DNA of 64,000 bases, taken from contig NC_012796.1 of assembly GCF_000010665.1 (NCBI RefSeq), forward strand, positions 4,922,001-4,986,000, in the 5' to 3' direction. Positions 605-3,851 of this stretch are shown here, piece after piece. Made by a program: the position numbers and the translations under genes. Below the pieces are notes generated by a model. It was not told the origin of the DNA. It made no database searches and saw only the letters and a list, made by a program, of their open reading frames with translations. The stretch's first letter is position 1; the number at the start of each line of letters is the position of its first letter. The DNA is from Solidesulfovibrio magneticus RS-1. Its GTDB lineage: Bacteria > Desulfobacterota > Desulfovibrionia > Desulfovibrionales > Desulfovibrionaceae.

Positions 605-641
605 CGGGGGGTCCGGGGGGATCATCCCCCCGGCCGCCGGA
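605..641 (-). repeat. Dispersed palindromic repeat, copy R1 (split by the IS110 element)
   Basis: On the minus strand the copy reads CCGGCGGCC, then a 21-base hairpin (613-633, arms CCGGGGGG/CCCCCCGG, loop ATGAT), then GACCCCCCG. Its head, GATGCCT in intact copies, is missing here and lies instead at 1803-1797 on the far side of the insertion element, so this copy was interrupted by IS110. Confidence 0.8.
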
Positions 642-676
642 GCAACGGTGTTCTGAGTCAACCGATAATCAGGGAT

Positions 677-1621
677 CTACGCCGCGTGTGCGTACTGTCC
701 CCACGGTTGCCCGGATCGCACCATTGCATTCAAAATCGTTATCAACTTTCGCATCGAAGCAACTGCGGCGACTTTATGTGGTTTGCCGGCTTCCTTGAGG
801 CGATTGTAAAAATCACGTATGACGGGATTGTATTTTTTAGCTGACAAGACAGCCATATATAATACAGATCGAACATCACTTCGACCTCCCCATACACGAC
901 GTTTTCCTCGACGCTTTCCGCTGTCACAATTCAAAGGGGCAACCCCAACAAGAGCAGCGATCTCCCGACGATTCAACGTTCCAAGCTCAGGCAGATTGGA
1001 AAGGAGCGACCTTGATAGGACATCTCCGACTCCAGGGACGCTCCGGAGCAAATTGTCTCGCTCACGCCAAATCGGACTCGCTCGTACTACTGTGCCAAGA
1101 TGCGTGTCGATCTCAGACAATCGTTCCTCAAGCCAGTCAATATTCTTCTCTATATCTGCTCTTACCGAGCCATAAGCACGAGTAAAACGATTTTTTTCCA
1201 TGACAAGCATTCGAATGAGTTGGTTGCGCCTGGACATTAGCGAACTCATTTCTTGCGCTTGCTCGTCCTTCAGAGGGCGTACTTCAGGCTCCATCTGCTT
1301 GCCAAAAAGAGCAAGAATCTCAGCGTCAATCTTGTCTGTTTTAGCCAGCCGTCCTTTAGCTCGCGCAAAATCCCGAGCCTGGCGGGGATTGATGACTACA
1401 ACGGGGAATTTCTTGAGACTCAATGCCGTGGCAACAGGAATTTGAAGGCCGCCAGTCGCCTCGATGATAATAAGCTTTGGACGAAATTTTGAAAATTTCC
1501 TGCAGATAGCTTTTATACCATCGGGGTCGTTAACAAATTGAAAGTCATTTCCGTCAGGAAGCGTGTGGACAGCAAGAGTTTCCTTAGAGACATCAATTCC
1601 GATGAAACAGTCAGCAGCCAT
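677..1621 (-). CDS. IS110-family transposase (DEDD / serine recombinase)
   Basis: 314 residues. The N-terminal RuvC-like DEDD domain shows GIDVSK near residue 10, IIIEATGG, and KTDKIDAE; a central coiled region follows. The C-terminal Tnp_20 domain has [10 protein letters not shown], then [16 protein letters not shown], whose serine matches the position used as the nucleophile in IS621. The size is normal for the family (about 300-340) and no frame is broken, so the element may be active. Two ATGs are possible. GGAGGA ends directly at the ATG at 1627 but lies six bases before the ATG at 1621, so 1621 is preferred. Its codon use is more AT-rich than that of neighbouring genes. It would act with the RNA from its own leader to recombine the circular element into target DNA. 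Confidence 0.93.
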
Positions 1622-1640
1622 GTACATTCCTCCAGTACCC

Positions 1641-1787
1641 AGCCTTGTGATACGGGCTCTTAGCCCAAGCAACGGTTCGGGCTTCATGGAAGAAGGGGAC
1701 GACGATCATGGCTCCGGCTCGAGCTTAAAACTCAAGGCAATTTCGACCTATCGTCCCCTTGACCCCATCAAGCTAACCTCGATGGGG
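1641..1787 (-). ncRNA. Predicted bridge RNA (seekRNA) of the IS110 element
   Basis: The leader upstream of the transposase folds by eye into three parts, in the order reported for the IS621 bridge RNA. Part one is a 5' stem-loop, CCCCATC/GATGGGG (1787-1781 with 1769-1763). Part two is a target loop closed by GGGGACGA/TCGTCCCC (1758-1751 with 1702-1695). It contains AAATTGCCT (1743-1735) on one side and GCCGGAG (1718-1712) on the other, around an inner CTTGAG/CTCGAG stem. Part three is a donor loop closed by AGCC/GGCT (1683-1680 with 1644-1641). It has an inner GGGCT/AGCCC hairpin flanked by ACCGTTGCT (1676-1668) and ACAAG (1648-1644). The guides match the observed target and donor junctions (see findings). 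Transcript ends are not known. Confidence 0.75.
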
Positions 1788-3851
1788 AAACATACAAGGC
1801 ATCTTCTCTTCTTCTTCGCTCTTCTCAATAGCCACGGCGCAAGCCTTGAACGACGGCGTGCCGGCCACGGGGTCGGCCTCGGCCGTGGTCAGGGCGTTGG
1901 CCGGGGATTCGGTGAAATGGAAGGTCATGAAGACCAGGCCGGGCGGCACGCGGCGGGTGACGCGCGCCCGGGCCGTAGCCTCACCCCGGCGCGAGCGCAG
2001 GCGCATGAGGCCGCCGTCGGTAATGCCGTAGCGGGCGGCGTCGTCGGGGTGCACCTCGGCCAGTTCCTCGGGGGCCGCGCCGGCCAGGCCGAAGCAGCGC
2101 CGGGTCATGGTGCCGGTATGGTAGTGGGGCGACACGCGGCCGGTGGACAGGGTCAGCGGATAGCCGTCGTCGGGCGGCTCGGCCCGGGAGCGCGCCGCCA
2201 GCGGCACGAACCGGCCCAGGCCCCGGGCAAAGCGGCCCACGTGGAGGATAGGCGTGCCGGGATGGGTTTCGTCCGGGCAGGGCCATTGCAGGCCGCCGCG
2301 TTCCAGCCGGGCGTAGGTCATGCCGGCGTGGCTGGGGGTCAGCCGGCGCATCTCGTCGAAGACGGCCTCGGCGTCGGCGTAGCGTTCGGGCCGGCCCAGG
2401 CGGGCCAGCAGCTCGGCCAGGATCATCCAGTCCGGGCGGCTGTGGCCGATGGGGTCCACGGCCCGGCGCACCCGCTGCACCCGGCGCTCGGTGTTGGTGA
2501 AGGTGCCGTCCTTTTCGGCGAAGCTCGCCCCGGGCAGCACCACGTCGGCCAGCTCGGCCGTTTCGGTCAAAAAGATGTCCTGGACCACCAGGAAATCGAG
2601 GGCTTTCAGGCAATGGGCCACATGGGCCACGTCCGGGTCGCTGCGCATGGGGTTTTCGCCAAAGACGTAGACGGCGCGAAGCGTGCCGTGGTGGGCGGCG
2701 TCGAGCATCCTGGGGATGGTCATCCCGGGCTCGGCCGGCAGCTTCACGCCCCAGGCCGCTTCAAAAAAAGCCCGGGCCGCATCGTCGCCAACCGGCCGGT
2801 AGCCGGTCAGGACGTTTGGCAGCGCGCCCATGTCGCAGGAGCCTTGGACGTTATTTTGCCCGCGCAGGGGGTTCACCCCGGTCTTGGGCCGGCCGAGGTT
2901 GCCCGTGGCCAGGGCGAGGTTGGACACGGCCAGGACGTTGTCCGTGCCGGTGACGTGCTGGGTGACGCCCATGGTGTAGTAGAAGGCGGCGTTGGCGGCC
3001 TTGCCCAAAAGGCGCGCGGCCCGGCGGATGGCCTCGGCCGGCAGGCCGCAGACCCCGGCCGCGTCCTCGGGGGCAAAGGCGGCCAGGCCTTGGCGGAAGG
3101 CCTCGAAGCCTTCGGTGCGGGCGGTGATGAAATCCTCGTCGGCCAGGCTTTCGTCCACGATCACCCGGGCCATGGCTGACAAGAGCGTCACGTCCGTGCC
3201 CGGGGTCAGGCGCAGCCAGACGTCGGCCCTGGTCGCCAGATCGATCTCGCGCGGGTCGATGACCACGAGTGCCGCCCCACGGCGCTTGGCTTCGAGCATG
3301 GCCAGGCCCATGACCGGATGGCATTCAGTGGTGTTGGAGCCGATGACGCACAGAGCGTCGCCCGGCCCCATGGCGGCGATTTCGCCGATGGCGTTGGTCA
3401 TGGAGCCGCTGCCCAGCGTGGTGGCCAGACCGGCCACGGTGGGGGCGTGTCAGAGCCGGGCGCAGTGGTCGATGTTGTTGCTGCCTAGCCCGGCCCGGAA
3501 AAGCTTCTGGAAGAGGTAGTTCTCCTCGTTGGTGCAACGCGCGCTGCTAAAGCCCCCCACGGCCGACGGGCCGCCGACCGCGGCGGCCTCGGCCAGCCGG
3601 CCGGCCACCAGGGCCAGGGCGTCGTCCCAGGAGGCCGGGACCAGCCGGCCGCGCGAGCGAATGAGCGGCGCGCGCAGCCGGTCGGGATGGGTCACGAAAT
3701 CGAAGCCGAAGCGGCCCTTGGCGCACAGCGCCGGGCCGTTGACCGAGGGCGACGGGCCGGGTTCGGCCCGAACGACGCGGCCGTCCTCGACACAAAGCGT
3801 CAGGGAGCAGCCGACACCGCAGTAGGGACAAATGGTGGGGATGTGTTGCAT
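1773..3851 (-). CDS. fdhF: Formate dehydrogenase H-type alpha subunit, selenocysteine-containing
   Basis: Molybdopterin (Mo or W bis-MGD) formate dehydrogenase, 692 residues, close to E. coli FdhF (715). It oxidises formate to CO2 in the cytoplasm; no Tat signal. The N-terminal 4Fe-4S site is CPYCGVGC (Cys8, 11, 15) plus Cys43 in LCAKGRF. An in-frame TGA at 3452-3450 (codon 134) sits in HCARL-U-HAPTVAGL, exactly where FdhF has selenocysteine followed by histidine, and a SECIS hairpin lies just downstream. Both halves are in one frame and align with FdhF across the TGA. The ATG at 3851 is chosen because the protein begins MQHIPTICPYCGVGC. The last seven codons and the TAG stop lie inside the IS110 element, so the native C-terminus has been replaced after ...EEEEKMP. 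The catalytic core appears intact. Confidence 0.93.
3421..3452 (-). promoter_or_regulatory. SECIS element and UGA selenocysteine codon in fdhF
   Basis: The UGA codon is at 3452-3450. Twelve bases later the mRNA forms GTGGCC-GGTCT-GGCCAC (3437-3421), a six-pair stem with apical loop GGUCU. E. coli fdhF carries the same loop sequence, the known SelB contact. A short outer CCCA/TGGG pairing is also possible. SelB would deliver Sec-tRNA here. Confidence 0.9.

Follow-up and report, generated by a model that had tools for sequence, protein, structure and literature searches.

Bridge RNAs, IS110 elements whose copies all lie in repetitive extragenic palindromes (REP), and the IS110-related invertase Piv are already known. 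IS621 has been reported to be programmable, and its donor-by-target reaction on inverted sites gives an inversion (Durrant et al. 2024, PMC11208160). In the structural work on the same element (Hiraizumi et al. 2024, PMC11208158) the left donor guide comprises A123-C130 followed by A131, the right donor guide pairs through one four-base block and one two-base block, and a junction promoter is described; whether excision, too, is the work of the recombinase-RNA complex is left open. ISPa11, ISPpu9, ISPpu10 and ISRm19 are IS110 elements with all their copies in the REP of their hosts (7 of 7 for ISPpu10; Tobes and Pareja 2006, PMC1525189), and the same source describes Piv as a site-specific invertase of Moraxella lacunata related to the IS110 transposases. 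In the IS1111 group the guide RNA follows the gene and the ends carry subterminal inverted repeats (PMC11187229).

Here we describe an element at positions 643-1796 (minus strand) of a 64,000-nucleotide stretch of Solidesulfovibrio magneticus RS-1 (hereafter the window, C2:4,922,001-4,986,000 of the 5.3-Mb host genome, G000), which by its sequence is an IS110-group insertion sequence (IS) with a predicted IS621-like bridge-RNA leader. Its ten host copies occupy one base of one dispersed palindromic repeat; in a genome of the same genus, G160, the DNA of its left donor guide is joined to an empty target 20 kb away, with the intervening segment inverted and the IS split at CT; and part of the repeat family consists of short units that end like the IS itself. 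We consider it probable that these observations are explained together by a bridge-RNA insertion sequence, an inversion at its donor guide and a set of IS110-ended units. The parts of the element to which the text refers are the following.

643-1796, minus strand: IS110-group insertion sequence, between the CT cores 1798-1797 and 642-641, with ten near-identical copies having the same two boundaries.
677-1621, minus strand: DEDD recombinase gene, about 314 amino acids (PF01548, 2e-24; PF02371, 2.1e-15), with an alternative upstream ATG at 1627.
1625-1796, minus strand: leader, predicted from the fold and the consensus to be a bridge RNA (5' stem-loop, target loop, donor loop).
1735-1743, minus strand: putative left target guide AAATTGC plus core CT (AAATTGCCT), with 4-5 of 7 non-core matches at ten sites.
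1712-1718, minus strand: putative right target guide GCCGGAG, complement of CTCCGGC.
1668-1676, minus strand: putative left donor guide ACCGTTGCT, identical to the right end at 649-641 and followed by TG.
1644-1648, minus strand: putative right donor guide ACAAG, complement of the left-end CTTGT (1798-1794).
641-649, minus strand: right end as read from the sequence, left donor half ACCGTTG and core CT (the same nine bases as the left donor guide).
656-661, minus strand: TTGACT, candidate -35 box by consensus match only.
1799-1805, minus strand: left half of the occupied target, AAGATGC, as read in the flank.
632-640, minus strand: right half of the occupied target, CCGGCGGCC, after which the hairpin of the repeat comes next.

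Both the DEDD_Tnp_IS110 (PF01548) and the Transposase_20 (PF02371) domains are present in the recombinase, as in IS621 and the rest of the IS110 group. Also as in that group, the longer, left non-coding end (about 175 nt before the gene, compared with 34 nt after it at the right) carries the predicted bridge RNA with its 5' stem-loop and its target and donor loops, the target is a palindromic repeat, and a CT core stands at both ends of the element in all ten copies. The layout of a junction promoter is likewise shared: in a hypothetical circle junction the right-end TTGACT would lie 17 nt from the left-end TATGTT (1794-1789), and the joined ends would give a promoter-like junction in which TTGACT could serve as the -35 box. 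With the IS1111 group the element has in common a DEDD recombinase with an RNA guide (predicted in our case), but neither a guide RNA after the gene nor subterminal inverted repeats are found here, where the right end is only 34 nt long.

The ten host copies are 99-100% identical, the gene of one of them containing a stop codon, and 10 of 10 are inserted at the same base and in the same orientation, with a left flank ending GC-CT and a right flank reading CT-CCGGCGGC. In having every copy in a palindromic repeat of the host the element resembles ISPa11, ISPpu9, ISPpu10 and ISRm19, but the repeat belongs to another family, part of which carries the right end of the IS. Landing sites are plentiful, since 440 host sites lie within one mismatch of TGCCTCCGGCGGC, compared with 42 for the reversed-pattern control, and the window alone holds five perfect GCCTCCGGCGGC sites, with cores at 43795, 44717, 46149, 52108 and 55593. 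A family-wide search of 199 genomes returned 17 transposase copies at E <= 1e-40, in five genomes of one genus. Seven of these copies belong to four other genomes of the genus and show the repeat halves at every readable junction; L134 has only 3 bases of left flank before its contig ends, and L136 is truncated inside the leader. The original prediction, made from the window alone, had proposed that the element is programmed for the high-copy repeat of its host and that every intact copy, five of them in the window, is a potential landing site. Both proposals agree with these counts, and no copy with readable junctions, in the host or in its relatives, was found in unrelated sequence.

The same prediction had placed the guides in two internal loops behind a 5' stem-loop, and its segments (AAATTGCCT, GCCGGAG, ACCGTTGCT, ACAAG and the left-end CTTGT) proved correct to the base on the minus strand. 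The leader folds at -72.3 kcal/mol (z -4.38; 0 of 200 shuffles as good) into a 5' stem-loop, a stem with the target guides in its loop and a stem with the donor guides in its loop, and the position of the guides is the same in an RNAalifold consensus of seven leaders. Of the 56 pairs in this consensus, nine show a compensatory change and ten are broken in one or two of the leaders. An Rfam scan of the window gave no family at the gathering score. Both donor guides fit the element's own ends as had been expected for the second loop, the left one at 9 of 9 bases and the right one at 5 of 5.

For the first loop, which had been thought to specify the whole target, the expectation held for the right guide but not for the left one. 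The right target guide, seven bases long compared with four in IS621, matches its flank at 7 of 7 bases at nine of the ten host sites, the exception being L006, where an extra T follows the core. The left guide matches only 4 or 5 of the 7 non-core positions of the occupied left halves at the ten sites. As a background for it we used 98 of the 400 counted sites (the 100 listed, minus two occupied ends), none of which exceeded 5 of 7; the mean match was 4.7 of 7 at occupied sites and 3.8 at the others (0.008 by resampling). This difference fades among sites ending in GC (0.12), and we make no claim for a left-guide preference beyond the shared repeat.

Relatives of the same genus have other left guides (ATGATGCCT, AAAGTGCCT) and the same right guide GCCGGAG. 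The agreement of right guide and right flank was followed in 23 elements from several phyla (the window element, L134, L135 and 20 relatives; L083 was dropped since no right end was found, and L086, L090-L130, L155 and 13 of 14 Pseudomonas wadenswilerensis loci were among those left out). The right guide matched its own flank over a mean of 6.6 nt compared with 4.0 nt after swapping, matches of at least 6 nt occurred in 19 of 23 own pairs and in 40 of 498 swapped ones, and 0 of 10,000 permutations reached the observed total. Together with the 10 of 10 host insertions, this swap test lets the proposed programming for the landing repeat stand, with the weight shifted: recognition of the target seems to use the right guide and the core and, on the left side, just the last two or three bases. 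By analogy with IS621 we infer that the bridge RNA is made and guides insertion. As a separate observation, a 39-40%-identical IS110 occupies 14 loci in P. wadenswilerensis (L068-L078, L080, L089, L091); at the eight loci whose ends were read the element always lies in a repeat CCGG-CT-CCCAC, and at L071, the locus included in the swap test, the right guide matches 8 nt.

The bridge RNA produced from the left end would pair through its target loop with the dispersed repeat ..GC-CT-CCGGCGGCC and through its donor loop with the joined element ends ACCGTTG-CT-TGTATG, the DEDD recombinase exchanging strands at CT. Under such a scheme the left donor guide must spell the left donor half, and in this lineage its DNA would amount to a near-complete donor site. 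In all ten host copies, as in L131-L133 and L134, the guide reads ACCGTTG-CT-TG and so spells the core and two further donor bases after the left donor half; two 82%-identical elements of another genome of the genus, G025, have ACCGTTG-CC instead. The leader DNA therefore holds a near-complete donor site, in which the core and the first right-donor block follow the left donor half. This differs from IS621, in which A131 follows the guide.

A natural break at exactly this site, a further departure from IS621, is found in G160. In one of its copies, L136, the first 129 nt, counting from the left CT, are missing; the left flank runs up to GGAAGATGC-CT and TGGGCG comes next, as it does behind the CT of the left donor guide in L134, the other copy of that genome. 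A right-junction pattern search located the complementary piece (L177), a 129-nt headpiece with the normal left end at its start; its IS sequence breaks off exactly at ACCGTTG-CT of the donor guide, from where the DNA reads on as CT-CCGGCGGCC. The left flank of the headpiece and the right flank of the headless part form a site, A, that is contiguous and IS-free in G000 and G025. The other two flanks form a site, B, which is contiguous in 9 of the 14 genomes of the genus, with its halves about 106-301 nt apart; elsewhere its halves lie on separate contigs (G109, G143), only one half matched well (G097, G080) or, in G160 itself, the rearrangement has split it. In G000 and G025 the two sites are 20 kb apart in opposite orientation, and alignment shows G160 inverted over this interval and G000 and G025 collinear. 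Comparison with G000 and G025 resolves all four half-sites of the split to the base, with the exchange at CT, and both junctions lie inside contigs with unique flanks. Compared with the full copy L134, the headpiece shows 2 differences in 131 bases and the headless part 57 in 1031, which means that neither is a piece of that copy. The split leaves a transposase gene without a target loop and a target loop without a transposase.

The simplest history would be a single crossover between the donor-guide DNA of an IS at A and the inverted empty target at B, giving the 20-kb inversion and splitting the IS, and the DNA encoding the donor guide seems itself to have acted as the donor. From the sites we infer that the element's own recombinase and RNA made the inversion, through the donor-by-target inversion mode of IS621. 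A natural inversion by an IS110-like recombinase, as G160 would then represent, recalls Piv, but Piv acts on a dedicated segment, whereas here the donor would be the bridge-RNA gene of an IS and its partner an ordinary target. Other material was set aside: the IS110 elements of three Escherichia coli/Klebsiella plasmids, considered as a test set for guide-site breaks, have left donor guides reading TC or AA instead of CT, and for the 148-bp exact tandem leader copy with N at L064:1633-1929 (Acidovorax), which resembled another guide-site event, a scaffolding overlap is likelier.

The analysis also refined the description of the repeat family, part of which is itself IS110-ended: its members include mobile-looking units, mostly of 106-170 nt, that end like the right end of the IS and begin like the right half of the target. 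Two of the five perfect target sites of the window belong to such units and three lack a recognisable unit tail, as listed here.

43795-43931, plus strand: IS110-ended unit of 137 nt with the right end ACTGCCGGGAACCACCGTTG, followed by CT; compared with the unit right end it has 3 mismatches.
44717-44886, plus strand: 170-nt IS110-ended unit, right end CTTGACGGAAACGACGGTTG then TT instead of CT, 4 mismatches.
46113-46149, minus strand: target repeat in which no unit tail is recognisable (10 mismatches in the best match).
52072-52108, minus strand: target repeat in which no unit tail is recognisable (11 mismatches in the best match).
55593-55630, plus strand: target repeat in which no unit tail is recognisable (9 mismatches in the best match).

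In three relatives the junction ACCGTTGCTCCGGCG outnumbers the transposase (17 to 0 in G097, 10 to 1 in G133, 24 to 1 in G143). We classified 55 such sites, comprising every one in G097, G133, G143 and G160, among which two contig-end pairs (L298/L299 and L307/L310) overlap and may each be one site. Forty-four were classed as units running from CT-CCGGCGG to ACCGTTG: 42 of 106-164 nt, one of 231 nt and one cut by a contig end and so without a length. The remainder comprised the 129-nt headpiece and ten unclassified sites (four IS right ends, two contig-end cuts and four without the expected left end). ACCGTTG was the search key and is therefore no independent evidence; beyond it, an exact TTGAC at the spacing of the IS right end occurs in 28 of the 43 units with sequence. 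A 22-nt right-end key, allowing up to 3 mismatches, matched 58 times in G133, 47 in G143, 46 in G097, 10 in G025, 8 in G160, 7 in G000 and 6 in G109. IS copies account for two of the matches in G025 and for two in G160, and most of the others are counted as pattern matches only. The reversed pattern gave zero matches in the 14 genomes.

The units share with the IS their left flank and the position of the CT. As the left end of a unit repeats the right half of the target, its insertion would restore ..GC-CT-CCGGCGG at the left edge and leave an intact target there, so that units could stack. Stacks of two or three units occur at L161, L168 and L169, and at L176 in G160 the IS lies at the left edge of a unit. 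We traced nine flanks through six genomes. At the L170 locus G143, G133 and G097 have three different units, G160 a short repeat, and G000 and G025 tailless repeats; at the L175 locus G143 has a unit plus a further repeat, G000 the IS, and the others single tailless repeats; at several other traced loci the relatives have a short repeat or none. Pairs of units up to 94% identical stand in unrelated flanks.

Miniature inverted-repeat transposable elements (MITEs) and REP/RAYT repeats are short, multicopy, non-coding and hairpin-bearing, and so are these units. They depart from both in that only one end, the right, is common to them and the autonomous element, the left being a copy of the target's right half; no terminal inverted repeats were seen in the printed units, for which no dedicated test was run. 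Because the right end, the core and the site are all shared with the IS, an IS110-type recombinase, present or extinct, is our first choice for their movement and probably moved them.

Several other explanations were weighed against this account. The G160 structure could stem from a chimeric assembly or from an ordinary inversion, homologous or illegitimate, that touched the IS by chance, and there is material for this, as the assembly is a draft, the genome has two related IS copies, A and B carry similar inverted repeats able to recombine by homology, and the CT common to the crossing sequences would suffice for microhomology. We find it improbable: the two junctions stand inside contigs amid unique flanks, the pieces differ from the only other copy, a homologous exchange between the repeats at A and B would have left the IS uncut, and the cut falls at the guide's CT and the target's CT together, CT being the sole shared sequence. 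A two-step origin, with a minicircle or permuted insertion from the donor-guide site followed by a later inversion through homology, would suit a headpiece that lies in a target and, like a mobile element, has CT at either end. We regard it as less probable still, given that the flanks of the two pieces are swapped between A and B, for which one crossover is enough and no additional event is needed.

For the units the main competitor is that they are ordinary REP-like repeats spread by RAYT, a Y1 transposase, or by gene conversion, and that their likeness to the IS right end is a coincidence or a capture. Their hairpins and intergenic position fit this, and the host has Y1_Tnp (RAYT-like) matches at two places (C2:126492-126849 and 4653125-4655142 in G000), in pieces with in-frame stops; no intact RAYT gene was found in G000, the genome searched. 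It nevertheless appears unlikely, although it deserves more weight than either alternative for G160, since the right-end layout agrees with the IS beyond the search key (the TTGAC at identical spacing), the unit boundaries are CT at the IS target site, and the reversed-pattern control came out empty. Finally, the target might be chosen by the protein or by the hairpin structure of the DNA, the guide matches being incidental. The imperfect left guide would be no surprise in that case, nor would the scarcity of covariation within a genus that has a single target, but the swap test covered 23 elements with different targets and IS621 is reported to be programmable (PMC11208160), and we hold such a choice to be highly improbable.

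Against the account of a bridge-RNA element with donor-guide inversion and IS110-ended units stand a number of observations. The left target guide fits poorly. The inversion affects a single copy among 17, its genome is a draft (89% complete, 220 contigs), and the inverted segment is itself interrupted by a contig end. Seven of the 14 genomes are without any unit right end by the 22-nt key; 9 of the 10 occupied host repeats, L004 being the exception, and 3 of the 5 target repeats of the window have no recognisable unit tail; the left end of the units agrees with the right donor guide of this element at the core but nowhere else; and G097, with 46 unit right ends, gave no PF01548 match. All of this evidence comes from DNA sequence, the RNA, the circle and the reaction being predicted.

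The IS itself, a new bridge-RNA element with readable guides, is no surprise. G160 would add to it a donor-by-target inversion recorded in nature and resolved to the base, with the guide's own DNA as the donor. We propose that guide DNA spelling a donor half plus core is a cryptic donor, which would invert, delete or fuse segments against hundreds of repeats while disarming the IS, and that non-autonomous, target-regenerating units, stacked by the bridge system, helped to build palindromic repeats which later became landing pads for the IS. Taken jointly, we regard these two proposals as plausible while stopping short of calling them probable. Identity between left donor guide DNA and one donor half would be a hazard in natural or engineered bridge systems, and elements whose guide spells the core are predicted to break there more often than others. 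The units, in turn, suggest a route by which palindromic repeats may grow without destroying their own target, and both they and the inversion touch the question of excision by the recombinase-RNA complex left open for IS621 (PMC11208158). Within open-licence papers, as far as their text was accessible, a literature search found no report of a donor-guide locus as a recombination site, of target-mimicking units with an IS110 right end, or of natural self-recombination, MITE-like IS110 derivatives, IS110 inversions or Desulfovibrio palindromes, and the accessible portions of PMC11187229, PMC13174815, PMC3454330 and PMC9769881 hold nothing on donor-guide recombination or IS110-ended units.

Some further observations concern the repeats and the surroundings of the element. 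One orthologous repeat is occupied by two different elements, L005 in G000 and L137 in G025, with flanks 91-93% identical and elements about 75% identical; the coincidence is real, and unsurprising with some 440 sites. The hairpins of the repeat (for instance at L025, L040 and 44717 in the window) vary widely in sequence with their pairing preserved, and often a second copy of the 3' arm comes after it, such as CCTCTCC after the first arm, an arrangement that could permit two alternative hairpins. In the right flank of L060 a second right end faces the first, inverted and a few dozen bases away, as if each arm of one palindrome had served a different element. Outside this lineage, other, distant IS110-family genes were found at L198 (G000:C2:122056) and L188 (G133:C51:561). 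In the window the IS stands between a molybdopterin oxidoreductase-like frame (1773-3437, minus strand) and an iron-sulphur subunit-like frame (1-573, minus strand), both named from their translations alone and both on the strand of the IS; the upstream, molybdopterin oxidoreductase-like frame extends through a purine tract into the element, and the insertion may have changed its C-terminus.

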